A stretch of 64,000 bases of DNA from Phycisphaerae bacterium (GCA_022072445.1 JAJVHV010000024.1:1-64000), one strand, 5' to 3'; shown: positions 1,926 through 64,000, counted from the stretch's first letter. The notes: a model not told the origin generated them from the sequence alone. Numbers and translations are program-made.

Positions 1926-3854
1926 CTACTCACTGGCCGCCTCCGGCCGCAGCATGCCCAGCTCCTGCGCCACTTCCAGCACAAATTCTCCGTTCTCCTC
2001 GGCCAGCTTCGTCGCCGGCGTATACCCGCTCAGCGTCGCCATCGACATCGGAAACACCGCCGGGTTCAACACGACGTTGTAGATGTGCAGGATGCCGACG
2101 TGAATCGCGGCGAGAAACGCCTCGTACGTGTGGATGATCAGCGCGATGTTGAAGAGCCGCCCGCCGAACACGTGGCTGGCTAACTGCTCGCCCCACAGCA
2201 TCAGGCCCGTCAGCCCCAGCAGCGACGTGCCCCACGCAACGCCGAAATACTCGAACTTCTCCGTGATCGTGAAGCGCCCGAACATCGGCCGCGTCCGCCG
2301 CAGACCAGTCAAATAGCCGAGCAGTTCGCCCGCCTTCCGCGCGTCGGTCGGCGTGATGACAAAGGGCATGCCCCAGAACGCGCGAACCAATCCGTGTGGA
2401 CGCCCGTTGCCGTCGTGCTCGCGTGCCCGGCGGATGATCCCGAGCATGATGTCGCCCAGATGCGCGATGAACCCAACCACCAGCGCCACACCCGCCCAGT
2501 GGTGAATCAGCCGCGCCATCGTCAACCCGCCGCACAGCCGCACCGCCACCTCCGCCCAGGCGCTGTCGGCGAACTTCAGCGGAAACCCCGTCAGGCACAG
2601 TAGCACGAACAGAACCGTCAGAATCCAGTGCTGGATGCGGTAGCGCGGCGAAAAACGCTGCAACCGACGGTGACCGTCGGGATGACGCATCAGTTCCTCG
2701 GCGACGCGCTCGATCTCCTCGGTCGCGTGGTAGTAGCGCCCGATCACAAGCTGCGCCAGCTCAAGCAGAACGATCAGCGCCGACGGCCCGAACGAGAGAA
2801 TCGTCAGGATGATGAACGCGATCGCCAGCAGATACTCCACCGTGCCGCTCGCCGCCGTGAGATCCAGGTGTACCGCCGCGGCGCTGAATCCCGGGTCGGC
2901 GCCCGGATGGCAATCCGTTGTCCGGCAGGAGTCCGCCACGTTTGAAACGTGAACCGCCGACGCCCGGTTGTCCGGCCCCAGCATCAGGTGCACGTTTTCG
3001 CGCGCCCGAATGTGGCAGGACAGGCAATTCGCCGTGTCCGACTGACCCAGCAGCGCCGCCTTGCCGTGGAAGCTGCGCACATAACTCGCGACCGAATTTC
3101 CGACTTCATGAGTCGCAAGAAATCTCGGGTCGCTGTGGCAAACGGCGCACACCTGCGCCAATTCCAGCGTCGGCCGCGCCGTCTGCAAACGCGACGTCAC
3201 GTGCCGCAACGCATACCGCGTGTCCAGCGGCAACTGCGACGTATGACAAACGTCGCAGCGATCAAAGAGCCGGTCATTCGAGTTGTGAATCGTCCCGAAC
3301 AGGCCGGAATTGCGGAATACCGGCTCGTCGTGGCAAAACAGGCATTGCGACTGACCGGGATCGAGCAGCGGCCCCCCCGTGAATTCCAGCTTGCCCAACG
3401 CCTCGCTCGTGTGAACGCTTTGCGCGAGCATCCGCGCAATGTTCTCATGGCTGAAGCGCCGTTCCGGCCCGTTCGGCGTCACCAGGTGGCACTGACGCGT
3501 GCAATCGACCGGCGTCGTTTCATGGTGCGGGACGACGCTCACTTCTTCGCGCACGTGGCAATCCGTGCATGCCAGCCGCGCATGCGGCCCGCGCAGCGCA
3601 TGCACGTAGCTCGGGTCGACGTAGTACAGCCGGACGCGATCCGTTGCGCTATCAAAACGGCTCAGCCCAGCGAATTGATGGCAGTAGAGGCAATTCTCGC
3701 GGTCCTGCGCGCCAGCGAGACCGGCCGCCGTCAGAATGACCAGGCCCGCAAGTGCTGCGCGAACCGCTGCGCGACTTCGCTCATTTGCGCGGACAGCCGA
3801 CGCCGATCGAGGAAAAGCGTGCATACCGGATTCTGTGCCGCGGTCATGCAACAT
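1926..3854 (-). CDS. Octahaem c-type cytochrome fused to membrane cytochrome b (FdnI/b561-like) domain
   Basis: This is a 642-residue protein. A signal peptide ends near AGAQ, about residue 50; ATG 3824, ten codons downstream, is an equally possible start. The periplasmic half carries eight haem motifs: CLYCH, CTDCH, CTRQCH (CX3CH), CLFCH, CDVCH, CAVCH, CLSCH and CRTTDCH (CX4CH). The C-terminal half has five membrane helices with helix-borne histidines (IQHWILTVLF, RLIHHWAGVAL, HTYEAFLAAIHVGILH), as in the di-haem cytochrome b subunits of formate dehydrogenase and hydrogenase. One chain can therefore link the quinone pool to a periplasmic haem wire. It lies between the 12-haem and 3-haem genes in one operon. 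The direction of electron flow is unknown. Confidence 0.85.
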   Translation of the reverse strand: MLHDRGTESGMHAFPRSASAVRANERSRAAVRAALAGLVILTAAGLAGAQDRENCLYCHQFAGLSRFDSATDRVRLYYVDPSYVHALRGPHARLACTDCHVREEVSVVPHHETTPVDCTRQCHLVTPNGPERRFSHENIARMLAQSVHTSEALGKLEFTGGPLLDPGQSQCLFCHDEPVFRNSGLFGTIHNSNDRLFDRCDVCHTSQLPLDTRYALRHVTSRLQTARPTLELAQVCAVCHSDPRFLATHEVGNSVASYVRSFHGKAALLGQSDTANCLSCHIRARENVHLMLGPDNRASAVHVSNVADSCRTTDCHPGADPGFSAAAVHLDLTAASGTVEYLLAIAFIILTILSFGPSALIVLLELAQLVIGRYYHATEEIERVAEELMRHPDGHRRLQRFSPRYRIQHWILTVLFVLLCLTGFPLKFADSAWAEVAVRLCGGLTMARLIHHWAGVALVVGFIAHLGDIMLGIIRRAREHDGNGRPHGLVRAFWGMPFVITPTDARKAGELLGYLTGLRRTRPMFGRFTITEKFEYFGVAWGTSLLGLTGLMLWGEQLASHVFGGRLFNIALIIHTYEAFLAAIHVGILHIYNVVLNPAVFPMSMATLSGYTPATKLAEENGEFVLEVAQELGMLRPEAASE

Positions 3855-3902
3855 CAGTGCCGGACCAGAATACGCGCAATTCGTTCATAACGAAAGCCCA
3901 AG

Positions 3903-5687
3903 TTATTGGGCGTTCAGTGCCTTATCAACCTCGTCGAGCTGTTCGCGTGCCGCGTCGAGACATTGCAGCGCAAAGTGTCGGTTATGCAGCCCGCCGCCCG
4001 CCCGCACCAGGCGAACGTTCTCACGGGCCTCGGCCAGCCGTTCCGCCAGCGCCTGCGGCAGGGCGCGGCCGGCGGCGGCGGCGGCTTCCGCCGCGGCGGT
4101 GACTTTCGCGAGTCGTGCGTCGGATTCGCGCACGTAGCCGTCGATTTCGCCCTTCCACTGATCAAACAGCTTGATGTACTCGTCGCCGTGACACGTGGCG
4201 CAGCCGCGCTGCGTGGCACGGACAAGCAGATCGCCCTTCATATCGCGGGCGGAATGCGTGTGGCACGCGCGACAGTTCAACCGCGAACCCATCATGGCGC
4301 TCGGCGTGCGATGCTCGATGCCGGCCCCGCCGGTGCCCGTCAGCAACGCAACCTGCTCGCTGTGGTGCCGGGGGTGACAGTGCTGACAGTCGGACAGCAC
4401 CGGCTGAAGGAAGCTGGCGTCGTCCATGCGCAGCGGGTCGAGCAACCCATGCTGGACGGCGCGGTGGCAGTCGGTGCAACGGGCGCGCTGCGCGTGAACG
4501 TGCTTGGCGTGCAGGTCCTCGACGTAGGCCGTGTCGCGGGCCGCGAACCCTTCCAGATAGCGGCCCTGATCGTGGCAGTGCGTGCAATCGCGCTCCATGA
4601 CGCGCGAATCGCCGCGAACCACGTCGGCGTGGCAACTGGCGCAGTCAACCTTGCGCTTGACGATGTCGTGATGGTCCATGAGCACCGGCGTCACGGCACC
4701 GGCCGCCGGCCGCTCATGGACGAGGATCGAGCGGGTGGGCGCTTCATGACAACGCAAGCACTCGCCCGTGCCGTGATTGAAGGACTCGTTGGTGAAGTGG
4801 CACGTGTAACAGACCTGCCGATCAACCGCGAAATGACGACTGCCGCCGGGGTCGTAGCCGTGGCAGGAAGCGCAATTCAGGCCGTCGAGCTGCGCCAGGC
4901 GGATGCGGCGGTGTTCGAGGTCGAGCCACTGCATGGCGTCGACGCGGGAGGCGTTATCGAGCGCGAGTTCCGAAGCAGCCTTGGCCAGCAGAGCGTCACG
5001 ATCGGCGGACGCGGCGATCGAGCGGGCGACCGACTCCAACCGCTGAAAGCCCTCCGGCGAGACCGTGGCCCGCAAACGCTCGGTCAACTGCTCGATGGCG
5101 TGCTCGGTTTCCGTGCGTGATTTAGCCGCCTGGAGGTGCTTTTCGTGGAAAAACCGCACCGTAGGTGTGCGTACGACCTCGATTTCCTGGTCGGCGACCC
5201 AGCGTTTTTCCGTGCGAGGCTCGCCAATGAGGAACATCTTGCTCTCGAAGTCCCGATCGCCGTGGCAATTCGACCGCAGACAGCTTTCGTCGGAAACGTG
5301 CGCGCGTGGCCGGCCGGTGCCGTAGCGGCCGCTGAAATAGCTGGCGACCTGGGAGAGGCCCTTGAACTTGGCGCGGAACGTGAGCCGCTCGCCCGGGGCG
5401 TAGTGGCAGTCGATGCAGCGTGCGCCGATCTTGGCGCCGTGCAGGTCGTGGCTCCAGGATTCGTAGTACGGGTCCATGACGTGGCAGGTGCCGCAGAACT
5501 GTGGCCGGCCGGTGTAATACTCCGCTCCGCACAGCCCGACCGCGCCAATGAGGGCGAAAGCGAACAGGGCGATTCCGACGGCGGTGAGCACGCGACGCAG
5601 GGCGCCGCGTCGCTTGCGCGTCGTGGTGCTCCCGTCGGGCGGGGCAGGGGGATTGACGGGCGTCGGATGCGGGGGAGACTGAGACAT
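3903..5687 (-). CDS. Dodecahaem NapC/NirT-type membrane cytochrome c
   Basis: This 594-residue protein has a proline-rich cytoplasmic start and one membrane helix (about residues 34-54). A NapC/NirT-like section follows, with FCGTCHVMDPYYESW and RCIDCHYAPGERLTFRAKFKG. Twelve haem motifs are present: eleven CX2CH and one CX4CH (CLRSNCH). NapC-type proteins take electrons from quinol; the extra haems make this a long conduit rather than a simple tetrahaem donor. A helical section without cysteines (residues about 150-270) separates the NapC part from the rest, and the C-terminus is again helical. It is the first gene of the minus-strand operon. Its promoter should lie in the 285-base divergent gap upstream. 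Confidence 0.85.
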   Translation of the reverse strand: MSQSPPHPTPVNPPAPPDGSTTTRKRRGALRRVLTAVGIALFAFALIGAVGLCGAEYYTGRPQFCGTCHVMDPYYESWSHDLHGAKIGARCIDCHYAPGERLTFRAKFKGLSQVASYFSGRYGTGRPRAHVSDESCLRSNCHGDRDFESKMFLIGEPRTEKRWVADQEIEVVRTPTVRFFHEKHLQAAKSRTETEHAIEQLTERLRATVSPEGFQRLESVARSIAASADRDALLAKAASELALDNASRVDAMQWLDLEHRRIRLAQLDGLNCASCHGYDPGGSRHFAVDRQVCYTCHFTNESFNHGTGECLRCHEAPTRSILVHERPAAGAVTPVLMDHHDIVKRKVDCASCHADVVRGDSRVMERDCTHCHDQGRYLEGFAARDTAYVEDLHAKHVHAQRARCTDCHRAVQHGLLDPLRMDDASFLQPVLSDCQHCHPRHHSEQVALLTGTGGAGIEHRTPSAMMGSRLNCRACHTHSARDMKGDLLVRATQRGCATCHGDEYIKLFDQWKGEIDGYVRESDARLAKVTAAAEAAAAAGRALPQALAERLAEARENVRLVRAGGGLHNRHFALQCLDAAREQLDEVDKALNAQ

Positions 5688-5972
5688 TCAGCGAATCCTG
5701 GGCGAAGGCCGAGTCGGAACGAGACCGAATCTGCACCATCATGCATGCCGCATACCAGCGGCTCCAGTGGTGGGGCTCAAAAAAATCGTCAGACTAGCAT
5801 GAAAAGATGAATATCGTGCCCGGTTGGCGCGCAAGTTGCGGGCGGTTAGCATGCCTTTGGCCGAAGGGTTGGAATGGGTACACGTCTTGCGAGTGTCAGC
5901 GCGCACCGCCCGCGGCGCCGGGCGGTGGGTCTTGTGTGATTCGGTCGTTGGTCCAACGTCGGAGGAAAGTTC

Positions 5973-7454
5973 GTGTCTCGTTCGAGCGTTCACCTCAAGC
6001 CGTTCGCGGTCCTGTGCACCTGTGCAGCATTTTCACTCGTCATGATGGGCGGTTGTCCGTTCTTCGATGATCTGTTCAATTCGAATTCGAACACGAATGC
6101 GAATGCGAATGCGAACGACAACGCGGACGACAACGCCAACGACAATGAGAAGGTGACCGGAAACACCGGCCTGACCGGCTCGTACGTCGGCTCGGAGCGC
6201 TGCTCGCTGTGCCACAACAACACGCACGCCAAGTGGGCCGAGACGCTTCACAGCAAAGCGCTCGAATCGCTCGAGGAAATCGGCCAGGACAAGAATCCCA
6301 ACTGCATCACTTGCCACACCGTCGGCTATGGCCAGTCAGGCGGCTTCGTCGATCGCGAAACGACCAACGCCCTGGCCGGCGTCGGCTGCGAAGCCTGCCA
6401 CGGGCCCGGCAAGGACCACGTCAACAACATCGAGGACGAGTCGCTTCGCCCGCCCAAGAGCATCGCCGCCAGCGTCTGCGGCGCCTGCCACACGGGCGAG
6501 CATCAGCCGAACTACGACGACTGGCTCACGTCGCGACACGCCGAGATTCAACCCTCTTTGGTGGAGGAATTCGCAGAGGGCACCAACGCGTCGAGCTGCG
6601 GCGTCTGCCACTCCGGCGACGTGTTCGTCGCGAAGCTGAACGGCGAAACCGTTGGGGCCGACTACCTGGAAGGCAAAACCGAAGAAGAGCTGAATCCGAT
6701 CACCTGCGCCGTCTGCCACGACCCGCACCAGAAGACCGAAAACGCCGCCGCTCCCGAAGACGGCCGCGACTATCAGCTCCGCTTTGCTCAGATCAAGTAC
6801 ACCACCCCGAGCACCAGCCTGGCGGACGCCCAGGACGGAACGCGCTTCAACCTGTGCGGCCAGTGCCACCACGCCCGCAACCGCGTCTGGACCGATTCGT
6901 CGCGCGAGCCGCACCCCAGCGACCAGGTCAACGTCTTCTTCGGCGAGATCCCGCTGCCCGACAGCGATCCGACCCCGATCGTCGCCTCGCGCGCGTCCGT
7001 GCACCTGAACACCGCCGAGCAGTGCTCCACCTGCCACGTGGTTCGCAAGCCGTTCGAGCAAGACATCGCCCCGGCCGTGTCGGGTCACACGTTTGAAGTG
7101 AATTTCGACGGCTGCGTCGATTGCCACGGAACGGCTGAAATCGCAGAAGCAAAGTTCAATGCCCTCAAGGTCGAGTTCGATTTCCGTGCCGAGCTCGTGC
7201 TGGAAGCGCTCGACGAGTGGGCTACGAACAACGACATCGACGGCAAGGGTACCAACAGTTGGGAGTTCACCAGCGAAGGTGGCCCGGCGTCATCGGGTCA
7301 GGCCAAGATCCCCAACGAGATCAAGAAGGCACGCTACCTCTACTACTACGTGGTGCAGGGCGGCGGCAACGGCGTTCACAACCCCGATTTCGTCCGCGAG
7401 GCGCTCGTTCGAGCGCTCGAGTATGCTGAAACGGCTCCGGCGCGGCTCCCGTAA
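5973..7454 (+). CDS. Nine-haem c-type cytochrome lipoprotein (cytochrome c554-like)
   Basis: The GTG start at 5973 is fixed by GGAGGAA at 5961-5967. The signal peptide ends in a lipobox-like MMGGC, so the mature protein of about 465 residues is probably lipid-anchored. An Asn-rich spacer (residues about 36-60) resembles linkers common in planctomycete lipoproteins. Nine CX2CH motifs follow: CSLCH, CITCH, CEACH, CGACH, CGVCH, CAVCH, CGQCH, CSTCH and CVDCH. The opening YVGSERCSLCHNNTHAKWAETLHSKAL resembles cytochrome c554-type proteins, which pass electrons between oxidoreductases. It is transcribed divergently from the 12-haem operon. A strong hairpin follows it, so it may be its own transcription unit. 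Confidence 0.85.
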   Translation: MSRSSVHLKPFAVLCTCAAFSLVMMGGCPFFDDLFNSNSNTNANANANDNADDNANDNEKVTGNTGLTGSYVGSERCSLCHNNTHAKWAETLHSKALESLEEIGQDKNPNCITCHTVGYGQSGGFVDRETTNALAGVGCEACHGPGKDHVNNIEDESLRPPKSIAASVCGACHTGEHQPNYDDWLTSRHAEIQPSLVEEFAEGTNASSCGVCHSGDVFVAKLNGETVGADYLEGKTEEELNPITCAVCHDPHQKTENAAAPEDGRDYQLRFAQIKYTTPSTSLADAQDGTRFNLCGQCHHARNRVWTDSSREPHPSDQVNVFFGEIPLPDSDPTPIVASRASVHLNTAEQCSTCHVVRKPFEQDIAPAVSGHTFEVNFDGCVDCHGTAEIAEAKFNALKVEFDFRAELVLEALDEWATNNDIDGKGTNSWEFTSEGGPASSGQAKIPNEIKKARYLYYYVVQGGGNGVHNPDFVREALVRALEYAETAPARLP

Positions 7455-7497
7455 TTTGCGCCACGTAACGATGTAATCGACGGCCGGGTTGCGTTTT

Positions 7498-7526
7498 GGC
7501 GCTGGCGGGTTCCCCCCGTCAGCGCC
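7498..7526 (+). terminator. Strong stem-loop between two cytochrome genes
   Basis: GGCGCTGGCGGG (7498-7509) pairs with CCCGTCAGCGCC (7515-7526) around a five-base loop, with one G-T wobble. It follows the stop of the nine-haem lipoprotein by about 43 bases. There is no clear T-run, so it could be a terminator, an attenuator or a transcript-stabilising hairpin. Confidence 0.5.
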
Positions 7527-7596
7527 ACTTCGCTTTCCCGACTCGCGCCGGCGCGGACTGCCGGCCGCCGTAATCACGGCATCGCTGGATTCCGCC

Positions 7597-9543
7597 ATGA
7601 CCGACCTCGCTCCGCTCGCGCATGCCGCCATCCCACCCGCCGCGATTCGCTGCCTGGCCGCCTTGCTGCTGCCCCTCTCCGCCACCGCATACGCTCAGCC
7701 CGTGCGCACCGAGTGCGCCGACTGCCACCGCGCTCAGGCCACCCAGTTCGCCGAATCCATCCACGGCCCGCGGCTGAAGTGCCAGGAGTGCCACGGCGGG
7801 CCGTACGAATATCGCCTCGAACCCGGCGCCGCCGACGCCTACGTGGCGCGGCTGGCGGCGGGCGAGAAGCCAGCCGCAACGTTCGATCACGGCGCGTCGT
7901 TCCGCGGCAAGGCCGCCCGCAAGGACGTACCCGAGGTGTGCGGTACATGCCACGCCGACGTCGGCCGCATGAACGCCTACGGCCTGCGGACCGACCAGCT
8001 CGCCTCCTACTGGGTCAGCGGCCACGGCCGAAGGCTCAAGGAGGATGGCGACGAACGCGTCGCGGTCTGCATCGACTGCCACGGGTCGCACGACGTGCTG
8101 CGGCACGACAATCCCAAAAGCCGCACCTATTTTCAGAACGTGCCGACGACCTGCGGGCACTGCCACGCCGATCGCGAGCTGATGCGGGCCTACAACCGCT
8201 CGGCCGACATCGTCGAGCAGTACAAGCAGAGCATCCACGGCCGCAACCTGCTCGAACGCTCAGACTCCGGCTCTCCCAACTGCGCAACCTGCCACGGCAG
8301 CCACGCCGCCGCTCCACCCGGAGTCGCCGAGGTCGGGCACGTCTGCGGCAAGTGCCATCAGCAGATCGAGCAGGACTTCGCCACCGGCGTCCACGCCCGC
8401 CTGCCGCTCTTCCCGCGCTGCGTCGGCTGCCACGCGAAGGACGGCGTTCGCGGCGACCACCGCATCGGCGAGGCCACGCCGCCCACCACCGAGCTGGTGA
8501 ACGCATTCGCCGAGGTGAGGGCGGCGGTCGGCGACGACGAGACCCGCGCGCCGGCGGAGTTCGCCCGCCGCGTCCGCGCCATGCCCGACTCGCTGCCGAT
8601 CGAGCGCGTCTGCTCCAACTGCCACGCCACCAAGCGCCCCGACCCGCACGCCCAGCTCGTCGCCTCCAACGACCTCTTCGCGATGGACAAGGCCAAGGAC
8701 CTGGCCGGCGCGACGGCGGCGGCTCAGTATCAATACGCGCGCGCCGCCGAACGCGTCGAACGCCTCGGCCGCGGCGTGCTGCTCGTCAAGAACGAGGCCC
8801 TGAGCGTCGAGGAAATCCGCGGCGAGCTAATGTCGCTCAACGTCTTCCTGCACACCATGAACGCCGAAGGCGTGCGCGAACGGCTCAAGAAAATCGAGAC
8901 GATGTGCGCCGAGGTCCACGCCGCGCTCGACGTCAAAGAGCTCGGCCTCACGCGCCGGCATCAGGTCGTAGGGGCGGCCTGGATCGTCATCCTGATTTTC
9001 GGCACGCTGATGTACCGCAAGTACCTGCTCCTTCGCGCCGAGTACGTCCGTGGCGGGCACGGTTCGCCGCAGGCCGTCGCGTTGCCCCTGGCACCCTCAG
9101 CCGCCGCCGCCCCGGCCCCCATCGCGCGACGCCGCTTCCTCGACAACGCGCTGCGCGGCTTCGGCGCGCTGGCCGCCGTCGCCCTGCTCTGGCCCGCGCT
9201 GGCGTACGTGTTCCCCGCCCGGCGGCGCGGCGGAGCCGACGAGCGCGCCAGCGCCGGAAAGCAGGACGGCTGGGCCGTCTGGGAGATGCGCAAGGTCGCG
9301 CTGGGCGGCAAAGCCGTCGGCGTCATCCGCACCGAACAGGGCTTCCGCGCGTTCTCACTGGTCTGCACGCACCTCGGCTGCATCGTGCACTGGAACTCCG
9401 CCCAGCGCGAGTTCGAGTGCCCCTGCCACGCCGCCAAATTCGACGCCGACGGCCGCGTCCTGGCCGGTCCGCCGCCGTCGCCTCTTCCGGCGTTCAGCGC
9501 GGCCGTGGTGCAGGGTGATGTGATCGTGAGTCGCGCGGGCTGA
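7597..9543 (+). CDS. Nine-haem cytochrome c fused to Rieske [2Fe-2S] protein
   Basis: ATG 7597 begins a signal peptide ending near AYAQ; a TTG start 108 bases upstream would bury it. The 648-residue protein has nine CX2CH motifs (CADCH, CQECH, CGTCH, CIDCH, CGHCH, CATCH, CGKCH, CVGCH, CSNCH) in residues about 45-345. A helical section and two membrane segments follow (about 457-473 and 515-537, the second after an Arg-Arg-Arg). The tail is a Rieske domain with CTHLGC at 590-595 and CPCH at 608-611, giving the two Cys and two His ligands. The next gene is cytochrome b, so this single chain likely replaces both the Rieske and cytochrome c1 subunits of a bc-type complex. Confidence 0.9.
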   Translation: MTDLAPLAHAAIPPAAIRCLAALLLPLSATAYAQPVRTECADCHRAQATQFAESIHGPRLKCQECHGGPYEYRLEPGAADAYVARLAAGEKPAATFDHGASFRGKAARKDVPEVCGTCHADVGRMNAYGLRTDQLASYWVSGHGRRLKEDGDERVAVCIDCHGSHDVLRHDNPKSRTYFQNVPTTCGHCHADRELMRAYNRSADIVEQYKQSIHGRNLLERSDSGSPNCATCHGSHAAAPPGVAEVGHVCGKCHQQIEQDFATGVHARLPLFPRCVGCHAKDGVRGDHRIGEATPPTTELVNAFAEVRAAVGDDETRAPAEFARRVRAMPDSLPIERVCSNCHATKRPDPHAQLVASNDLFAMDKAKDLAGATAAAQYQYARAAERVERLGRGVLLVKNEALSVEEIRGELMSLNVFLHTMNAEGVRERLKKIETMCAEVHAALDVKELGLTRRHQVVGAAWIVILIFGTLMYRKYLLLRAEYVRGGHGSPQAVALPLAPSAAAAPAPIARRRFLDNALRGFGALAAVALLWPALAYVFPARRRGGADERASAGKQDGWAVWEMRKVALGGKAVGVIRTEQGFRAFSLVCTHLGCIVHWNSAQREFECPCHAAKFDADGRVLAGPPPSPLPAFSAAVVQGDVIVSRAG

Positions 9544-9552
9544 GGATCGAAG

Positions 9553-10806
9553 ATGGCGTCGAAACCGGAGTCGAAGCGCTGGCACGAGATCCTCCACGAG
9601 CGGATGCGCTTCAAGACCGTCCGCGACTTCAGCCACAAGCAGCTCTACAAGCGCCTGCCGCCCCACACCGGCTGGGTCCACGTCTTCGGAAGCGTCGCCC
9701 TGCTGATGTTCTTCAGCCAATTCGTCACCGGCATCCTGCTTCTGCTCTACTACCGCCCGACGCTCAAGGAAGCACACGAATCGATCCAGTACATCACCGG
9801 CGAGGTGCCGTTCGGCTGGCTGTTCCGCCAGATTCACGCCTGGGGTGCGACCGTGATGATGCTGGCCGTCGTGCTGCACATGGTCCGCACCTATTTCATG
9901 GCGTCGTTCAAACGGCCGCGCGAGCTGACCTGGGCCCTCGGTGTGCTGCTCTTCGTCGTCACGCTCGTCTTCGGGTTCACCGGCTATCTGCTGCCCTGGA
10001 ACCAGCTCTCCTACTGGGCCACCACCGTCGGAACCGAAGTGGTCGGCGCCGTGCCCTTCGTCGGCGAACAGCTCAAAGAGGTCGTGCTCGGCGCGCCCGC
10101 CGTCGGCCAGGAGACTCTCTCGCGCTTCTTCGTCGTGCATGTCGCCGTCCTCCCCTGGATCATCGTCCTGCTCGTCGCCGCCCACCTGATCCTGATGCGC
10201 GTCCACAACCTGGCGACGCTCGAAGACGTCGGCGCCGAAAAGCCGTTCCCGCCCGAATCCGGCGTCCCGTTCTGGCCGGTCCACATGGCCAAGGAGGCGT
10301 GCGTCGCGGCCATCATCCTCGGCCTGCTGCTGACGCTCTCGGTCTTCTCGCCCTGGGAAATCGGCGAGCCGGCCGACCCGCTCAAGACGCCCGAGGGCAT
10401 CAAGCCCGAGTGGTACTTCCTGCCGACCTACCAGCTTCTCAAGTACTTCTCCGGCCCGCTCGGAAAGTTCCTCGGCATCCTCGTCTCCGGCGTGCCGTTC
10501 ATCCTGCTGCTGGTCTGGCCGCTCCTCGACCGCACCACCGCGCGACACCCGCGCAAACGACCCGTTTCCTTCTGGCTCGGGATGATCGCCATCATCCTGG
10601 CCGTGTTCTTCGGGCTCCTCGGGCACTTCTCCGAGACGACCATGAACATCGGCGGGATGCGCGTGCACTTCGACATGTACGGCGTTCCACACGTGCTGGA
10701 GGCCGAAGCCGCGGCGCCGGCCGGGGGCGAGGCGGGCGAGTCCGAGGCGCCGCACGGTGGACCGTCGTCGCAGACCTCGGGGGCGCCGGCGTCCGGTCAC
10801 GGTTGA
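9553..10806 (+). CDS. Cytochrome b of a bc1/b6f-type complex
   Basis: This is a 417-residue membrane protein starting nine bases after the Rieske fusion. Haem b ligands are visible as His pairs in the HAWGATVMMLAVVLHMVRTYF and FFVVHVAVLPWIIVLLVAAHLI helices. The quinol-site motif PEWY is present in IKPEWYFLPTYQLL. The C-terminal half continues into three further helices, so the b6-like and subunit-IV-like parts are in one chain. Residues after about 375 form a low-complexity Gly/Ala/Ser tail. With the upstream multihaem Rieske protein it should oxidise quinol and pass one electron into the haem wire. No separate cytochrome c1 gene is seen. Confidence 0.92.
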   Translation: MASKPESKRWHEILHERMRFKTVRDFSHKQLYKRLPPHTGWVHVFGSVALLMFFSQFVTGILLLLYYRPTLKEAHESIQYITGEVPFGWLFRQIHAWGATVMMLAVVLHMVRTYFMASFKRPRELTWALGVLLFVVTLVFGFTGYLLPWNQLSYWATTVGTEVVGAVPFVGEQLKEVVLGAPAVGQETLSRFFVVHVAVLPWIIVLLVAAHLILMRVHNLATLEDVGAEKPFPPESGVPFWPVHMAKEACVAAIILGLLLTLSVFSPWEIGEPADPLKTPEGIKPEWYFLPTYQLLKYFSGPLGKFLGILVSGVPFILLLVWPLLDRTTARHPRKRPVSFWLGMIAIILAVFFGLLGHFSETTMNIGGMRVHFDMYGVPHVLEAEAAAPAGGEAGESEAPHGGPSSQTSGAPASGHG

Positions 10807-10843: not shown

Positions 10844-10859
10844 TGGTACGTCGTTTGCT
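10844..10859 (+). promoter_or_regulatory. Candidate sigma-54 promoter
   Basis: TGGTACG, four bases, then TTTGCT places GG and GC exactly 12 bases apart, as in the -24/-12 consensus TGGCACN5TTGCW. It lies 78 bases before the Rrf2 regulator start, and the window also encodes sigma-54 at 32952. No enhancer-binding activator gene is nearby. Confidence 0.45.
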
Positions 10860-10881
10860 TGAAATTCCAGCAGTTGGCGCT

Positions 10882-10909
10882 GAATTGTGGACTCACCGGT
10901 CCACAATTC
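10882..10909. promoter_or_regulatory. Perfect 11-bp inverted repeat, probable Rrf2 operator
   Basis: GAATTGTGGAC (10882-10892) is followed after six bases by its exact reverse complement GTCCACAATTC (10899-10909). The dyad lies between the candidate promoter and the regulator start, where autoregulating Rrf2 proteins bind. Just upstream, AATTCCAGC and GCTGAATT form a second, imperfect dyad. The hairpin could also act in RNA. Confidence 0.6.
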
Positions 10910-10936
10910 CGCACTCGACGGCTGGAGTTGGCGCGC

Positions 10937-11371
10937 GTGATCTCCCAGACCACCGAATATGCGCTCCGCGCTGCCGCGCGGCTCGCCTCGTGCCCGGGAA
11001 CGGTTCAGCAGGTGCGCGAAATCGCGCGGGCCACGCAGGTCCCCGCCAGCTATCTGTCCAAAGTGCTGCGCACGCTGGCGCGGGCCAGACTGGTTGAATC
11101 CCAACCCGGACCAGGCGGGGGGTTTCGCCTGGCGCTCGACCCGCAACGCATCAGCGTCCTCGACGTCGTCAACGCCATCGACCCCTTCAAGCGCATCGAG
11201 ACCTGCCCGCTGGGACTGCCGGAACACGAGCAACGTCTCTGCCGGCTCCACCGACACCTCGACCATGCCTGCCGGCAGATTGAGCGCCTTTTCGGCGGCT
11301 GCACTCTGGCCGCGCTGCTCGAACGCACCCCCTGGCCGGCGGACTTACGCGCCAAAGGCAGGCCGCGATGA
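10937..11371 (+). CDS. Rrf2-family transcriptional regulator
   Basis: GTG 10937 gives the family's usual start (VISQTTEYALRAAARLA) and is preceded by GGAG. The 144-residue protein has the winged helix (VREIARATQVPASYLSKVLRTLARARLVES), the glycine-rich wing (GPGGGFRLAL) and the dimerisation helix. Three cysteines follow in ETCPLG, RLCRLH and HACRQI, in the area where IscR/NsrR relatives bind an Fe-S cluster, though the spacing is wider than in those. A redox- or NO-responsive role for the downstream HAO operon is inferred from family and position. Its stop overlaps the next start (ATGA). Confidence 0.9.
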   Translation: MISQTTEYALRAAARLASCPGTVQQVREIARATQVPASYLSKVLRTLARARLVESQPGPGGGFRLALDPQRISVLDVVNAIDPFKRIETCPLGLPEHEQRLCRLHRHLDHACRQIERLFGGCTLAALLERTPWPADLRAKGRPR

Positions 11372-12093
11372 GCACCGCCCAGCCGAGCACACGCGGTGCC
11401 TGGGTCGCCGCGCTCATGGGGCCCGCCTTCGCCTCCCTGGCAGCCTGGTTCATCTGGGGACCCGCACTCACGCGCCTACCCGTCGGAAAACCCGCCGTCG
11501 TCCCCGATGCAGCGCTCAGCACCGCGGCCCGCCGCACCACCGTCGGCGATCCACCCACGATTCTCATCAACAACTTCCGCCGAACCTGCACCGATTGCCA
11601 CCGCATCTTCGACGTCGCGGCCCGCCCCGAGGGCGACCGGCTCCAGCACGCCCACGTCAAGCTCGAACACGGCATCAACGATCGCTGCCAGAACTGCCAC
11701 AACTATCGAAACATGAACGAGCTGGTGCTCTACGACGGCGGCGCCGTGACGTATTCCGAAGCGCCGCGCCTCTGCCAGAAGTGCCACGGGCTGATCTTCG
11801 AAGACTGGGAACGCGGCATCCATGGACGCGTCAGCGGCGCCTGGACCTCCGAGCTGGGTCCGGTGCAAAGGCTGCGCTGCATCGAATGCCACGACCCGCA
11901 CCAGCCGCGCCATCCCGCCATGGACCCGCTCCAACCGCTGCCCGGTCCGGCCACGCTGCGGATGGGAACGCCGCCCGCCGGCGGCGCGCACGCGCCGGAG
12001 CTGCGCGAGGGCGACCCGCTCCGCCGCGCACTGCTGCACCCCCAACTCTCCGGCAACAACCGCACCGAAAGGGCGCAGCATGAAAAACCCTGA
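11368..12093 (+). CDS. Tetrahaem c-type cytochrome
   Basis: This 241-residue protein has an uncleaved or cleaved N-terminal hydrophobic segment (residues about 10-32) and four CX2CH motifs: CTDCH, CQNCH, CQKCH and CIECH. NNFRRTCTDCHRIF, the HVKLEHGINDRCQNCHN section and LIFEDWERGIHGR give extra histidines that can serve as distal haem ligands. It overlaps the Rrf2 gene and the following Fe-S protein gene, so it is translated as part of the HAO-type operon. The probable role is an electron carrier between the NrfC/NrfD-like proteins and the octahaem enzyme. The C-terminal 40 residues are Pro/Gly-rich. Confidence 0.85.
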   Translation: MSTAQPSTRGAWVAALMGPAFASLAAWFIWGPALTRLPVGKPAVVPDAALSTAARRTTVGDPPTILINNFRRTCTDCHRIFDVAARPEGDRLQHAHVKLEHGINDRCQNCHNYRNMNELVLYDGGAVTYSEAPRLCQKCHGLIFEDWERGIHGRVSGAWTSELGPVQRLRCIECHDPHQPRHPAMDPLQPLPGPATLRMGTPPAGGAHAPELREGDPLRRALLHPQLSGNNRTERAQHEKP

Positions 12094-13153
12094 CAGCACG
12101 CCCGCCGCCGGCGGACCGCAGATCACCCGCCGAAGCGTCCTGCGCGGAGCACTCAACACCGCCGGGGGGCTGGCGGCCTTCGCCGCCGCCGTCAGCCCGC
12201 TGCGCGACCTCGACCGCGACGAGCTGACTCTCGAACGCTTCCTTCAGAAGCACTACAAGGAGATGACCCCCGACGAAAAGGACCGCGCGCTGCAACGCAT
12301 CGCCGCCGAAGTCGAGCGGCGATACGCCGCCAGGCCCGAGCTGCGCGATCTGCCGGCGATGGACGGCGTCGAGTTCGCCTACGCGCTCAATCTCGGCCGC
12401 TGCATCGGCTGCCGCCGGTGCGTGCACGCCTGCGTCGCCGAGAACAACCAGAGCCGCGATCCGGAGGTTCAGTACATCCGCGTGCTGGAGCTGCCGCGCG
12501 GCAGCGTCGACGTGGAGCGCGCCGATCATTATTACGATCGGCCCGCGGTGCCCGATCCCGACCACTTCTACATGCCCGTGCAGTGCCACCAGTGCGCCAA
12601 TCCGCCCTGCGTCAAGGTCTGCCCCGTCGAGGCCACCTGGCAGGAACCCGATGGCGTCACCGTCATCGACTACGACTGGTGCATCGGCTGCCGCTACTGC
12701 GAAGCCGCCTGTCCCTACTTCGCCCGACGATTCAACTTCGCCGAACCGTCCGTCCCGCGCGAGAAGCTGAACACCGACATGACCTACCTGTCGAACCGCC
12801 CGCGGCGCAAGGGCGTCATGGAGAAGTGCCACTTTTGCCTCCAGCGGACACGCGCCGGGCGCATGCCGGCCTGCCTGGAGGTCTGCCCGGTCGGAGCGCG
12901 CAACTTCGGCAACCTGCTCGACCCGGACAGCCAGGTCGCGCAGATTCTCAAGACCAAGCACGTGCTCGTCCTCAAGCAGGAGGCCAACACCCTGCCGCGC
13001 TTCTTCTACTACTTCGACGAGGACTTCCCGCGGAACCGCGGCAGCGCCCCCGCCCGCGGCAGCGAGGCGCACCGCAAGGGTCTCTCGCTGACCGTCCTCA
13101 ACCCACAGGCGGCGCAAAGCCTGCCCGGCCGCGGCCGCGGGGGGCCGGCGTGA
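12080..13153 (+). CDS. Tat-exported four-cluster Fe-S protein (NrfC/HybA/PsrB type)
   Basis: ATG 12080 overlaps the tetrahaem gene by 14 bases. The 357-residue protein starts with a twin-arginine signal (TRRSVLRGALNTAGGLAAF). Four ferredoxin-type cysteine groups follow: CIGCRRCVHAC, CHQCANPPCVKVC, CIGCRYCEAAC and CHFCLQRTRAGRMPACLEVC. That is the ligand pattern for four [4Fe-4S] clusters in the electron-transfer subunits of NrfCD- or DMSO-reductase-like complexes. No molybdopterin subunit is adjacent, so its partner is the NrfD-like protein encoded next (GTGA overlap). The C-terminus ends in a short Gly/Arg-rich tail. Confidence 0.92.
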   Translation: MKNPDSTPAAGGPQITRRSVLRGALNTAGGLAAFAAAVSPLRDLDRDELTLERFLQKHYKEMTPDEKDRALQRIAAEVERRYAARPELRDLPAMDGVEFAYALNLGRCIGCRRCVHACVAENNQSRDPEVQYIRVLELPRGSVDVERADHYYDRPAVPDPDHFYMPVQCHQCANPPCVKVCPVEATWQEPDGVTVIDYDWCIGCRYCEAACPYFARRFNFAEPSVPREKLNTDMTYLSNRPRRKGVMEKCHFCLQRTRAGRMPACLEVCPVGARNFGNLLDPDSQVAQILKTKHVLVLKQEANTLPRFFYYFDEDFPRNRGSAPARGSEAHRKGLSLTVLNPQAAQSLPGRGRGGPA

Positions 13154-14391
13154 AAACCTACCTCACATTCCTCTGGCGCTGCTTCCGCATGAGCTTTAAC
13201 GGCGACTGGCGCTATCACACCTGGATGTTCGTGCTGACGGCCATCGCCCTCCTCGGTTTGAACGCCTATTGCCGCCAGCTCGTCCACGGGCTGGTCATGA
13301 CCGGCATGACCGACCAGGTCTCATGGGGAATGTACATCGCCAACTTCACGTTCCTGGTCGGCATGGCCGCCGCCGCGGTCATGCTCGTCATCCCGGTCTA
13401 CGTCTACCGCAACCGCGACCTGCACGACCTGGTGATCTTCGGCGAGCTGCTCGCCGTCGCCGCCATCATCATGTGCCTGCTCTTCGTGCTGGTCGACCTC
13501 GGCCGGCCTGACCGCTTCATGCACATCTTCTGGCGGTTCAATTTCCCCATCTCGATGCTGAGCTGGGACGTGATCGTGCTGAACGGCTATCTGCTGCTCA
13601 ACCTGCACATCTGCGGCTACCTGATCTACTGCGCCTATCGCCGCGTCCCGCCCAGCCAGTACTTCTACGTGCCGTTTGTCTTCATCGCCATCGCCTGGGC
13701 CATCAGCATTCACACCGTGACCGCGTTCCTTTACGTCGGTCTGGGCGGCCGGCCGTTCTGGAACACCGCGATCATCGCGCCGCGCTTCCTCGCCTCGGCC
13801 TTCGCCGCCGGCCCGGCCCTGATCATCCTGACGCTTCAGATCATCCGCCGCTTCGCCGGCGTGCACGTCGCCGATCGCAGCCTGCTGCTGCTGCGGAACA
13901 TCGTCACCGTCGCGCTGACCATCAACATGTTTCTGCTCGTCTGCGAGCTGTTCACCGAGTTCTACACCGATTCGGCACACGTCGCCTCGACGGTCTATCT
14001 CTACTTCGGCCTGCACGGCTACGCCGCACTGGTGCCCTGGATCTGGACCGCCGTCGCCCTGAACACCGCCGCCCTCGTCATCCTCTACCTGCCGCTCACC
14101 CGCAGCCTGCAATCCCTCAACGCGGCCTGCCTGCTCATGATCGTCGGAATCTGGATCGAGAAGGGCATGGGGCTGATCGTGCCGGCGTTCATCCCCTCGC
14201 CTCTCGGCGAGATCGTCGAGTACTCCCCGACCGCCAACGAAACGCTCATCTGCCTGGGAATCTGGGCCTTCGGACTGCTGCTCTACACGATCATGGTGCG
14301 CATCACCGTGCCCGTGCTTTCCGGACAACTGACCATCAACGCCGATTCGGGCGGCTCACCCGCCCGCGCGCCGCATCTCGAAGAGGTGTAA
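13150..14391 (+). CDS. nrfD: NrfD/PsrC-like quinone-interacting membrane subunit
   Basis: GTG 13150 overlaps the Fe-S protein stop. The 413-residue product is almost entirely membrane helices, about ten of them, as expected for the NrfD/PsrC/ActC family. These anchor Fe-S subunits and exchange electrons with quinones. The fold is suggested by the helix pattern and segments such as MYIANFTFLVGMAAAAVM and LVDLGRPDRFMHIFWRFNFP. With the four-cluster protein and tetrahaem cytochrome it should connect the quinone pool to the octahaem enzyme. The gene symbol is by family only; a true NrfA pentahaem nitrite reductase is not seen here. Confidence 0.88.
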   Translation: MKTYLTFLWRCFRMSFNGDWRYHTWMFVLTAIALLGLNAYCRQLVHGLVMTGMTDQVSWGMYIANFTFLVGMAAAAVMLVIPVYVYRNRDLHDLVIFGELLAVAAIIMCLLFVLVDLGRPDRFMHIFWRFNFPISMLSWDVIVLNGYLLLNLHICGYLIYCAYRRVPPSQYFYVPFVFIAIAWAISIHTVTAFLYVGLGGRPFWNTAIIAPRFLASAFAAGPALIILTLQIIRRFAGVHVADRSLLLLRNIVTVALTINMFLLVCELFTEFYTDSAHVASTVYLYFGLHGYAALVPWIWTAVALNTAALVILYLPLTRSLQSLNAACLLMIVGIWIEKGMGLIVPAFIPSPLGEIVEYSPTANETLICLGIWAFGLLLYTIMVRITVPVLSGQLTINADSGGSPARAPHLEEV

Positions 14392-14393
14392 CC

Positions 14394-15896
14394 ATGAGGC
14401 CAATCTCACAACTCGTCGTTTCTTTCCCCGCGGCACGGCACCCCGCGCTGCGGGCCGCCGCCGCCGCCCTCCTCGGCGCGGCCGCGATCCAGCCCGCCGC
14501 CGGACAGGCCATCGGCCTGCCCGCCATCAGCGAAGCCTCCGCCGAGTGCATCAACTGCCACCGCAAGACCGACCCGGTCATCTACCAGCAGTGGGGCGAC
14601 AGCAAACACTTCCGCGGCAACGTCGGCTGCTACGAATGCCACGCCGCCGAAAAAGGCGATCCCGACGCCATGGAGCACTACGGCCTCACCATCGCGACGC
14701 TCGTCACGCCCAAAGACTGCGCCCGCTGCCACAGCCGGGAAACCGCCGAGTTCGCCAGCTCGCACCACTCCAAGGGCGGCCGCATCCTCGGCTCGCTCGA
14801 CAACCACCTGGCCGAAATCGTCGAGGGAGACCGGCGCTTCATCTCACCCGCGTTTCCCGGCGGCGTCTCGGCGGCGGCGGTTAGCGGCTGCTGGCAGTGC
14901 CACGGCTCGGAGGTCAAAGTGCTCGCCGGCGGCAAGCTCGACCCAGCCACCTGGCCCAACAGCGGAATCGGACGCCTCAACCCCGACGGCTCGGAAGGCT
15001 CGTGCAACGCCTGCCACACGCGGCACTCGTTCTCCGCCGCCCAGGCGCGGCACCCGAACACCTGCGGCAAGTGCCACCTCGGCCCCGACCATCCCCAGAA
15101 GGAAATCTATGAGGAATCCAAACACGGCATCCTCTTCTTCGCCAACGTCGACAAGATGAACCTCGACAACAACAAGTGGATCGTCGGCGAAGACTATTGG
15201 GCCGCCCCGACCTGCGCTACCTGCCACATGTCAGCCACCAAGTCCCAGCCCGTCACCCATGACATCGGCTTGCGGATCAGTTGGAACAACCGTCCGGCAC
15301 TCTCCATCCGCCCCGAAGAATCCGACGCCAAGATGAATCTTCCCGGCAAGGACGTTCCCTGGCAGATGCGCCGCGCCAAGATGCAGGAAGTCTGCCTGAA
15401 CTGCCACAGTAAGCCCTGGGTCGACAACTTCTACGTCCAGTACGACGCCTTCGTCGAGCAGTACAACGAGAAGTTCGCCCGCCCCGGCCTCGACCTCTAC
15501 GCCCTCGCCAAGCCGCTCCGCGCCTCACCCGACGAATTCGCCAACAGCATCGACTGGTCCTGGTACGAAATCTGGCACCACGAAGGCCGCCGGGCACGCC
15601 ACGGCGTCTCCATGTTCGCTCCCGACTACGCCCACTGGCACGGCTCCTACGAGGTCGCCAAGCACTTCTACACCCGGTTCATCCCCGAACTCCAGGAGCT
15701 GATCGAAAAGGGCAAGACCTCCGGCAACGCCGACAAGGTCAAGGCCGCCGAAACCCTCGAAAAGAAACTCGACGAGGTGCTCAACCGCAGCGACCACCAG
15801 TGGTACATCGGAAAAATGGACGCTGCCGAGAAAGAACGCCGCAAAAAAGCCGCCGATGAGTTCAAGCAGCGCTACTCCGGCGGCGCGAAGCCGTGA
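14394..15896 (+). CDS. hao: Octahaem hydroxylamine-oxidoreductase-family protein
   Basis: This is a 500-residue protein with a signal peptide ending near AAGQA (about residue 39). Eight CX2CH motifs lie at residues 52, 79, 109, 166, 204, 224, 274 and 334. The fourth, CWQCHGSEV, is at the place of the catalytic haem in HAO. HAO relatives oxidise hydroxylamine or hydrazine, or reduce nitrite or NO when the cross-linking tyrosine is missing. A tyrosine is present at 412 in FAPDYAHWHGSYEV, in the C-terminal part where the cross-link tyrosine is expected; I cannot confirm the alignment. It starts two bases after the NrfD-like gene, so it belongs to this quinone-linked operon. Confidence 0.9.
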   Translation: MRPISQLVVSFPAARHPALRAAAAALLGAAAIQPAAGQAIGLPAISEASAECINCHRKTDPVIYQQWGDSKHFRGNVGCYECHAAEKGDPDAMEHYGLTIATLVTPKDCARCHSRETAEFASSHHSKGGRILGSLDNHLAEIVEGDRRFISPAFPGGVSAAAVSGCWQCHGSEVKVLAGGKLDPATWPNSGIGRLNPDGSEGSCNACHTRHSFSAAQARHPNTCGKCHLGPDHPQKEIYEESKHGILFFANVDKMNLDNNKWIVGEDYWAAPTCATCHMSATKSQPVTHDIGLRISWNNRPALSIRPEESDAKMNLPGKDVPWQMRRAKMQEVCLNCHSKPWVDNFYVQYDAFVEQYNEKFARPGLDLYALAKPLRASPDEFANSIDWSWYEIWHHEGRRARHGVSMFAPDYAHWHGSYEVAKHFYTRFIPELQELIEKGKTSGNADKVKAAETLEKKLDEVLNRSDHQWYIGKMDAAEKERRKKAADEFKQRYSGGAKP

Positions 15897-56253: not shown

Positions 56254-57486
56254 TCAGCCGCCGAGCGTGATCATGCTGACGGACTGGAGCTTCGGGCCGG
56301 CGGGTTGCTTGTGCTCGACGGCCGAGAGGACCCGTTGCTCAACCAACCGGGGCGAGAGGCGGTCGCCGAGCCAGGCGGCGCGCAGGTCGGTTGACCGCGC
56401 GTCGAGCAGACAGGGGAAGAGCCGACCGTCGGCGGTGAGGCGCATGCGCCGGCAGCCGGAGCAGAACGGCTCTGAGACGGGAGCGATGATGCCGATCACG
56501 CCGGTGTTTGCGGCATCGGGCGTGTTGGCGGGCGTTCTGGCAGTCGTGCCGGGCGTGGTGAAGACCAGCGACTCGGCACGATAGCGTTGGGCGGTCTGGC
56601 CGGGTTCGGCCGTGAGCGGCGTCAGCCGGTAGCGCGTGGCCAGGGCGGCGCGAATCTGAGAGGCGGGGACGAAGCGGGCGATGTTGTCAGCGGCCGCCGG
56701 CCCGATCGGCATGGCTTCGAGAAAGCGTGCTTCGAGGTCGCGCCGCAGGCACCAGTCCGCCAGCGACACGATCTCAAAGTCGTTGACACCGCGGAGCACG
56801 ACGCAGTTGATGCGCGGCGGGGGGAAGCCGGCCGCGCGGGCGGCGTCGATGCCTTCGAGGACGGGCGCGAGCCGGCCGCCGGTGATCTGCGCGTAGCGCC
56901 TGGGATCGAGCGAGTCGAGCGAGATATTGAGGCGGTCGAGGCCGGCGCGGCGGAGCAGCGCGGCGCTCGTGGCGAGGCGCTGGCCGTTGGTGGTCATGGC
57001 CAGGCCGATGTCCGGCAGCCGGCTGCGGAGATTGGCGATCAGGTCGACCAGACCTGGATGGAGCAGCGGCTCGCCGCCGGTGAGTCGGAGCTGCGACAGT
57101 CCGAAGCGCTGGTGGAGGCAGGCGATCAGTTCGACGCGTTGTGCGTCGCTGAGGGCGGGGTTGGATTCGTGGGGGCGGACGGAAGGCCGGCAGTAGCTGC
57201 AGCGCAGGTCGCAGGCGGAGGTGACGGAGACGCGGAGGTGGTCGATGTGCCGGCCGCAGCGGTCGATGAGCGCGGCGCTGTGCACGGAGTCCTGCCGCCG
57301 TCGCGATTGCGGGTGCGGCAGTCGCGGCGCGGGTGTGGGCGGCTGGGCGGGGACAGTCGAGGGCGGCGGGATGGGCACAGCCGGGGGCGGCTGCGCTACA
57401 CGACTGGCGAATTCGTCGAAGTCGGCGGCGCGCTGCAACACGCGGAGCGCGAGCTGCAACGGGTGTCGCCGGTCGAGGTCAGGCAT
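56254..57486 (-). CDS. moaA: GTP 3',8-cyclase MoaA with extended N-terminus
   Basis: ATG 57486 overlaps the upstream gene by eight bases and gives 410 residues; GTG 57285 would give a normal 343-residue MoaA. The radical SAM motif CDLRCSYC is at 92-99. RLTGGEPLLHPGLVDLIANLR and TTNGQRLA follow, with the second cluster cysteines in PFCSGCRRMRLTADGRLFPCL. The C-terminus ends in the required GG. It starts molybdenum-cofactor synthesis, fitting the Mo-enzyme genes upstream. Residues about 30-60 (AQPPPAVPIPPP) are encoded by a hairpin repeat. Confidence 0.88.
   Translation of the reverse strand: MPDLDRRHPLQLALRVLQRAADFDEFASRVAQPPPAVPIPPPSTVPAQPPTPAPRLPHPQSRRRQDSVHSAALIDRCGRHIDHLRVSVTSACDLRCSYCRPSVRPHESNPALSDAQRVELIACLHQRFGLSQLRLTGGEPLLHPGLVDLIANLRSRLPDIGLAMTTNGQRLATSAALLRRAGLDRLNISLDSLDPRRYAQITGGRLAPVLEGIDAARAAGFPPPRINCVVLRGVNDFEIVSLADWCLRRDLEARFLEAMPIGPAAADNIARFVPASQIRAALATRYRLTPLTAEPGQTAQRYRAESLVFTTPGTTARTPANTPDAANTGVIGIIAPVSEPFCSGCRRMRLTADGRLFPCLLDARSTDLRAAWLGDRLSPRLVEQRVLSAVEHKQPAGPKLQSVSMITLGG
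57351..57403. repeat. REP-like hairpin inside the moaA 5' region
   Basis: CAGCCG-GGGG-CGGCTG at 57378-57393 and a decayed copy (ACAGTCGAGGGCGGC) just before it belong to the family at 48552. On the minus strand it encodes the Pro-rich stretch in the MoaA extension. Confidence 0.75.
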
Positions 57487-59223: not shown

Positions 59224-59237
59224 GACGCTTGCCTCGG

Positions 59238-60515
<1,278 letters not shown>

Positions 60516-60535
60516 AGGACTCTCCCGTACGGCTT

Positions 60536-60554
60536 GCGGCCGGCGGTCGGCCGC
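60536..60554 (-). terminator. GC-rich stem-loop between hemerythrin and nxrB
   Basis: GCGGCCG (60536-60542) pairs with CGGCCGC (60548-60554) around a five-base loop, in the 63-base gap before nxrB. It may attenuate or process the operon transcript. There is no T-run. Confidence 0.35.
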
Positions 60555-60578
60555 TGGTCTGGTGTCAGCGCGTGAGAC

Positions 60579-61178: not shown

Positions 61179-61588
61179 GGGACCATTCCTTTCGGCTGAG
61201 TCGCCGCGGCGCCGTCCGGGATTGAAGGCGCGCTGCGCGGTTGGACATTGGGCGTGGGGTCAAGGACCGGCAGCCGCAGGCGGCCGCCCGGTTCGAAGTC
61301 GGGCGTGGCGTGCGGGCCGCGCGGGCCCCAGCGCCGGGTTGACGCTTCGATCAGTGCGCGGATGTGCTGCTCGCCCAGGGCCTGAAGCGCCCGGTGCGGG
61401 CCGGCGTAGCCGGCGGTGGCGAAGAGCCGCCAGATGCGGTCGGTGCTGAAACCGAGCCGCATAAACTCGTCGATGAAGCACTCGGCCATCTCGACGTTGG
61501 CGCGCCGCGCTTCGGCGGCGCTGCCGGCGTCGAGCTCCACGCCTTCGAGCGTCATCGGGTCGGTGGCGTCTGGTTCCTGGTAAGGCAT
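61175..61588 (-). CDS. Small protein of unknown function in the nxr operon
   Basis: This is a 137-residue soluble protein with a helical core (AEARRANVEMAECFIDEFMRLGFSTDRIWRLFATAGYAGPHRALQALG) and a Pro-rich unstructured C-terminus. The helical part resembles short domains found beside oxidoreductase genes, but I cannot name it. It overlaps the following hemerythrin gene and lies eight bases after the previous one, so it is co-expressed with both. Confidence 0.65.
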   Translation of the reverse strand: MPYQEPDATDPMTLEGVELDAGSAAEARRANVEMAECFIDEFMRLGFSTDRIWRLFATAGYAGPHRALQALGEQHIRALIEASTRRWGPRGPHATPDFEPGGRLRLPVLDPTPNVQPRSAPSIPDGAAATQPKGMVP

Positions 61589-61596
61589 GCGTCACC

Positions 61597-62046: not shown

Positions 62047-64000
<1,954 letters not shown>

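Follow-up and report, generated by a model that had tools for sequence, protein, structure and literature searches.

An octahaem cytochrome c encoded with a DsrOP-like quinol module in a Phycisphaerae bacterium: a conserved gene block and probable nitrite reductase

Introduction

Among the described octahaem cytochromes, the eHao of Campylobacterota is paired with a NapC-type cytochrome, and MccA carries an unusual long haem motif. The octahaem cytochrome of Ignicoccus hospitalis (IhOCC) was reportedly found by Parey et al. in 2016 to reduce both nitrite and hydroxylamine.

With regard to the direction of catalysis, the absence of the tyrosine cross-link favours reduction, according to published reasoning (PMC8940962; PMC5317091). 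In 2017, a four-gene locus beside napMADGH was described in the deep-sea sulfur bacteria T. dismutans and D. thermophilus, and nitrite reduction was proposed for it, with sulfur compounds as the alternative (PMC5276818). It has also been proposed, in general, that NrfD-like subunits move protons (PMC8076601). In this study, a compact gene block of a Phycisphaerae bacterium is analysed within the window, i.e., the whole 64,000-nucleotide stretch of DNA examined, and compared with these systems.

Gene Content of the Block

The block comprises five genes, all on the + strand and tightly packed within 10844-15896 (gene calls, 64-kb window). Gene calls and Pfam confirmed the first-pass annotation with regard to their place and their adjoining or overlapping arrangement. 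The genes are as follows:

10859-11371 (likely GTG start 10937), + strand: Rrf2-family transcription regulator (PF02082, 100 bits, cut-off 30; TIGR00738, 109.5 bits)
11368-12093, + strand: tetrahaem cytochrome c with four CxxCH and a putative N-terminal membrane anchor (motif count; a homologue adjoins the octahaem gene in 44 of the 51 well-flanked loci defined below)
12080-13153, + strand: periplasmic Fe-S protein, DsrO-like (Fer4_11, 63 bits, above cut-off; NCBIfam DsrO, 170 bits, below the cut-off of 200)
13150-14391, + strand: NrfD-superfamily quinol-binding membrane protein, DsrP-like (PF03916, 132 bits, above cut-off; NCBIfam DsrP, 420.9 bits, cut-off 350)
14394-15896, + strand: octahaem cytochrome c (OCC), IhOCC/eHao-like, predicted nitrite reductase (eight CxxCH; PF13447, 85 bits, above cut-off)

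Neighbouring genes overlap by 4 (Rrf2/tetrahaem), 14 (tetrahaem/Fe-S), and 4 bases (Fe-S/NrfD-superfamily), and a 2-base gap precedes OCC. The GTG at 10937 is the likely start of the Rrf2 gene since, in the open reading frame, the Rrf2 domain starts only near residue 27.

The Fe-S protein has a twin-arginine (Tat) leader (RRSVLRGA) and 16 Cys in four groups, from which four [4Fe-4S] clusters are predicted. Among the NCBIfam models, it is closest to DsrO, whose cut-off is not reached, and scores 93 bits against NrfC (cut-off 378). The membrane protein passes the DsrP model and reaches only 28 bits against NrfD (cut-off 348). Judged by these scores, the pair is DsrOP-like, not NrfCD-like; thus, the built-in quinone connection noticed in the first-pass annotation stands, but its assignment to the NrfCD type does not. 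Neither DsrM nor DsrK was found among the genes adjoining the block (gene calls, Pfam). The tetrahaem protein remains below the cut-off of the NapC/NirT-type family PF03264 (18.5 bits, cut-off 24.1).

OCC is the only PF13447 protein of the organism's own genome (genome search). A motif scan found no CxxCK in it, so a catalytic haem of the ONR type is absent, and no long-spaced CX(3-17)CH of the MccA type.

Affiliation of the Octahaem Cytochrome

The best solved relative of OCC is IhOCC from Ignicoccus (4qo5), with E values of 4.6e-48 (single sequence) and 2e-65 (profile), as compared with 2e-18 and 5e-24, respectively, for the HAO of N. europaea; the identity to IhOCC is only about 25-32%. An AlphaFold model was built from 58 diverse sequences (pLDDT 88, pTM 0.82), 16 similar sequences having given a pLDDT of 54. 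The closest solved fold to this predicted structure is again 4qo5 (Z 28.1, 382 residues, rmsd 2.9), followed by HAO, HDH, and kustc0458 (Z 19-22.5). The match to 4n4n_A (Z 22.3, 343 residues, rmsd 4.2) indicates that the eight CxxCH motifs are combined with an HAO fold.

In two maximum-likelihood trees, a 100/100 branch parts the OCCs from HAO, HDH, and the kustc0458 type. In the first tree, IhOCC, a long-branched fragment, also fell on the OCC side. The second tree placed on the same side two octahaem cytochromes of 40% identity from plasmids of Desulfosarcina and Desulfobaculum, each encoded beside a NapC/NirT gene; neither tree took in an authentic eHao sequence of Campylobacter or Nautilia. 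By both trees, the OCC of the window is outside the HAO/HDH clade, a placement that the first-pass annotation itself had named as refuting its reading, and the initial designation as HAO is not supported. It was not classed as eHao proper either, because its partner is the DsrOP-like module and the tetrahaem protein is below the NapC/NirT cut-off. A separate observation concerns an anammox 'Scalindua' genome (locus L137), in which a single frame of 843 aa encodes both a cupredoxin-like region at the N-terminus and an octahaem domain of the kustc0458 type and is possibly a NirK-like/HAO fusion, the cupredoxin call coming from reading the sequence only.

Residue Y412 had been put forward for comparison with the cross-linking tyrosine of HAO. 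Tyr467 of N. europaea HAO (GGWTYTEG) aligns to His414 of the window protein (PDYAHWHG) in three MAFFT modes, which, together with a profile alignment to the kustc0458 type, form the basis of the call; in the C-terminal part, the HAO-OCC alignment has to bridge a deep divergence, and this region was misaligned when global profiles were used. His414 is invariant (103/103 members). Y412 had been located correctly but is not the counterpart of Tyr467, and its column is variable (Y 91, I 6, F 4, and W 2 in the 103 members). Elsewhere, the Tyr467 column holds Tyr in the HAO of Ruegeria (haoB neighbour), Trp in the NapC-paired proteins, and Thr in IhOCC. Hence, by alignment, OCC appears to be devoid of the cross-link tyrosine. 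Asp267 and His268 of N. europaea HAO correspond in the alignment to D232 and H233 of the window protein; IhOCC has PDV where OCC has PDH and is therefore without the His of this Asp-His pair.

Conservation of the Gene Block

A family-alignment scan of species-level genomes detected relatives of OCC in at least 564 stretches. Gene neighbourhoods were compared in the best 80 loci of these, a sample that is biased because it is made of best hits and in which related genomes are not independent; 51 of the loci are well-flanked, with 4 kb or more on either side. An NrfD homologue is present beside OCC in 46 well-flanked loci, an Fe-S protein in 46, a tetrahaem protein in 44, and all three in 44, while OCC occurs without the NrfD module in five. 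By the labels of the metagenome bins, module genes lie beside OCC in Planctomycetota, Verrucomicrobiota, Hydrogenedentota, Myxococcota, Pseudomonadota, Acidobacteriota, Bdellovibrionota, Aminicenantes, Latescibacterota, Thermodesulfobacteriota, Campylobacterota, and Cloacimonadota. Two gene orders, tetrahaem-FeS-NrfD-OCC and OCC-tetrahaem-FeS-NrfD, were observed, and the module is on the opposite strand in Cloacimonadota.

The tetrahaem-FeS-NrfD-OCC block is therefore conserved in about a dozen bacterial phyla, in an order far from chance, and the view of the locus as an octahaem cytochrome with its own quinone connection holds for 44 of the 51 well-flanked relatives. Among 100 related genomes, 61 contain an OCC homologue. 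Among the relatives with a named record, the nearest is a metagenome-assembled genome of Phycisphaerae (L052); by this kinship, the window probably stems from an uncultured planctomycete of that class. A 168-aa protein with no match in Pfam (L032:3962-4468) is encoded 3′ of OCC in roughly one half of the 80 loci and is possibly part of the system; the window has no space for a gene directly 3′ of OCC.

The first-pass annotation had also included the Rrf2 gene in the gene order and described the module as Rrf2-controlled. This part was not borne out: Rrf2 is near OCC in only 6 of the 51 well-flanked relatives, which rules it out as a defining part of the module. It lies directly 5′ of the block in L068 and also in the nearest relative (L032/L052, 56% identical). 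Upstream of the Rrf2 gene, one further feature was found in the window:

10883-10908, no strand: perfect 26-bp palindrome AATTGTGGAC-TCACCG-GTCCACAATT, 5′ of Rrf2

This palindrome is, tentatively, a possible candidate for an Rrf2 self-operator. It has one copy in the genome, allowing up to three mismatches, and was not found 5′ of Rrf2 in L032 or L068. By chance, a window would contain about 3.5 inverted repeats of this class, and since the class is no rarer than that in the window as a whole, the role as an operator is only a suggestion.

Nitrate Reductases and Other Multihaem Genes

A NapA homologue is located within 12 kb of OCC in 19 of the 80 loci. Twelve of 100 relatives carry a NapA-like gene, all of them together with OCC (Fisher 0.002, kinship ignored), and NapA is 0.1-1.4 kb from OCC in 9 of these 12 genomes. 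In the nearest relative, OCC, the 168-aa protein, a NapD-like protein, a NapA-like protein, and a tetrahaem cytochrome form one run. A second subfamily shows the layout Rieske-cytochrome b-OCC-NapA-tetrahaem, and the eHao of Caldithrix was published with a Rieske/cytochrome b-Nap cluster of that kind (PMC5317091).

In three loci (L040, L046, and L078), a type II Nar/Nxr-like enzyme is encoded near OCC, together with a NarJ-like chaperone in L040. These clusters also contain hemerythrin and alginate-export-type porin genes (identified in L040), and a homologue of the porin recurs near OCC in several other loci. An enzyme of this type is encoded at the far end of the window:

59238-60515, − strand: beta subunit of a Nar/Nxr-like enzyme of the type II DMSO-reductase family (identity of 80% to the beta subunits of L040 and L078 and of 79% to that of L046)
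62043-64000, continuing to C15:65522, − strand: alpha (Mo) subunit of the same Nar/Nxr-like enzyme, with a Tat leader (TIGR03479, 331 bits, cut-off 985)

Over 297 aa, the alpha subunit shares 81% identity with the corresponding end of the gene in L078. Since the beta subunit shares 79-80% identity with those encoded near OCC, the window holds the same partner pair, albeit about 45 kb apart and outside the operon. The enzyme is a possible source of nitrite for OCC; it could also work in the opposite direction, as a nitrite oxidase. The alpha and beta genes are followed on their 3′ side by a MoaA-like radical SAM gene (window 56254-64000, − strand).

In the organism's own genome, a model search with positive controls gave zero matches for NirS and Hcp, the best NirK match had 28 bits (far under the cut-off of 296), and no NapA was above threshold. 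The NrfA model PF02335 gave only a marginal match (23.9-24.3 bits, cut-off 24.1), to a nonahaem cytochrome at 5973-7454. This genome is thus likely to be without a convincing NrfA, NirS, NirK, or Hcp, judging by these searches, and the absences are likely rather than certain because it is 96.7% complete.

Additional multihaem genes are present upstream of the block. The region 1926-7454 encodes a b561-type membrane protein with 6 CxxCH, a protein with an NrfH-like N-terminus and 11 CxxCH, and a c554-like protein with 9 CxxCH after a low-complexity lipoprotein-like start. It is followed, at 7489-10806, by a nonahaem cytochrome (9 CxxCH) fused to a C-terminal Rieske domain and by a cytochrome b (b6/subunit IV fused). 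This Rieske/cytochrome b pair, directly 5′ of the module and on the same strand, is possibly a second quinol route in this organism. As a conserved trait of the OCC subfamily, such a feed was rejected, bc genes being near only 1 of the 80 loci.

Proposed Function and Alternative Explanations

From the genes and their order, the position of OCC in the trees, the missing tyrosine in the alignment, the link to nitrate reductases, and the lack of other convincing nitrite reductases, we infer that the four structural genes probably encode a membrane-attached, quinol-linked, ammonium-forming nitrite reductase, which would be reductive and not oxidative. This proposal extends to substrate, direction, product, electron route, and any energy conservation. 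Briefly, the DsrP-like protein would oxidise quinol in the membrane, and the electrons would be handed on by the DsrO-like Fe-S protein with its four predicted clusters and by the tetrahaem cytochrome with its putative anchor. The last step would take place in the periplasm, where OCC, at a haem lacking the Tyr cross-link, would form ammonium from nitrite and probably also from hydroxylamine. The nitrite may come from the periplasmic Nar/Nxr-like enzyme, whose genes are on the same contig at a distance of about 45 kb, and from NapA in many relatives. The direction, which had been left undecided in the first-pass annotation, is hence settled in part: the missing cross-link, the kinship to the IhOCC/eHao type, and the nitrate reductase neighbours, in a genome with no other convincing nitrite reductase, favour the reduction of nitrite, which had been proposed independently for the similar locus of PMC5276818. 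A broader view, that a DsrOP-linked, NrfA-independent complex with a proton-translocating NrfD-like subunit is widely used for respiration in PVC and numerous other uncultured phyla, i.e., an energy-conserving octahaem ammonification, is rather doubtful at present.

The complex may be reductive and yet serve another purpose, such as the detoxification of nitrite, hydroxylamine, or NO, or may release NO or hydroxylamine instead of ammonium. The Rrf2 gene adjoining the block here would suit such a role, and the 40%-identical octahaem cytochrome of the Desulfosarcina plasmid is encoded beside NorR and NO reductase. It was also reported that an anammox octahaem enzyme without the Tyr reduces nitrite to nitric oxide (PMC10732223); however, the kustc0458 type lies across the 100/100 branch from OCC, together with HAO. 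The dedicated quinol module and the operons shared with NapA point to respiration instead, and this genome has no Hcp to finish the conversion from hydroxylamine, so that a purpose of this kind is considered unlikely. The opposite direction, in which hydroxylamine or hydrazine would be oxidised and electrons would flow via the tetrahaem, Fe-S, and DsrP-like proteins to quinone, would be consistent with the fold related to HAO and with the retained Asp-His pair (D232/H233), but is very improbable in view of the His at the position of the cross-link Tyr, the placement outside the HAO/HDH clade, and the nitrate reductase neighbours; a search for AMO gave no match, although it had no positive control and is therefore mute on absence. 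Similarly, a sulfur-compound reductase acting on tetrathionate, polysulfide, or sulfite is brought to mind by the DsrP/DsrO-like partners and the MccACD-like layout, as well as by the alternative named for the Thermosulfurimonas/Dissulfuribacter locus (PMC5276818). It is hardly to be expected here, given that all eight OCC haems have plain CxxCH motifs, unlike the long motif of MccA, and that linkage to nitrate reductases occurs repeatedly.

Implications and Comparison with Known Systems

If the assignment as an ammonium-forming nitrite reductase is true, surveys based on nrfA only would under-count the capacity for nitrate-to-ammonium conversion, relatives of OCC being present in at least 564 stretches. 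Proteins of the OCC type go under names such as 'hydroxylamine oxidoreductase' or 'multiheme cytochrome', and a potential for nitrification or anammox can wrongly be read from them. Furthermore, the block is a case, open to testing, of an octahaem nitrite reductase that brings its own quinol module, possibly a proton-moving one, in place of a feed of the NapC type or by Rieske/cytochrome b.

With HAO and HDH (N. europaea, Kuenenia), OCC has the fold, the octahaem core, and PF13447 in common, but it differs from them in the cross-link Tyr and belongs to a separate clade. IhOCC is its best match in both sequence and fold and is likewise without the cross-link; on the other hand, the identity is low and PDV replaces PDH. 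The eHao proteins (Campylobacterota; Caldithrix abyssi Cabys_2556, PMC5317091) are also octahaem, have no cross-link Tyr, and are encoded beside nitrate reductase genes. OCC shares with them eight plain CxxCH and the absence of both CxxCK and the cross-link Tyr, but not the NapC/NirT-type partner. The Rieske/cytochrome b-Nap layout of Caldithrix (PMC5317091) matches the arrangement of the second OCC family, not the DsrOP-like module of the window.

Among the systems with similar partners, MccACD, an octahaem sulfite reductase, combines an octahaem protein with an Fe-S/NrfD-like quinol module as seen here, whereas the OCC of the window is without the long motif. DsrMKJOP uses the same partner superfamilies, and the DsrP cut-off is reached while that of DsrO is not; however, the window has a tetrahaem protein as opposed to the trihaem DsrJ, and no adjacent DsrMK. 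The partner superfamilies of NrfABCD are the same as well, but the window block has no adjacent pentahaem NrfA, and the NrfC and NrfD cut-offs are not reached. Papers on Deferrivibrio and Acididesulfobacillus were considered as precedents and rejected, since the NrfD operons therein are other ones.

Judged by its description, the locus reported in PMC5276818 contains, as in the window, an HAO-homologous multihaem cytochrome, an NrfD-family protein, a 4Fe-4S protein, and a membrane cytochrome c. That locus lies beside nap, whereas the block of the window lies beside Rrf2 and the Rieske/cytochrome b pair, with the Nar/Nxr-like enzyme 45 kb away. To call the complex little-described, as was done initially, is fair, but because the same gene contents were described in 2017 (PMC5276818), the module is of an already known, uncharacterised kind. 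To that description, the present analysis adds the DsrOP identity of the quinol module, the breadth of its distribution, an answer by alignment on the tyrosine, and two types of nitrate reductase partner.
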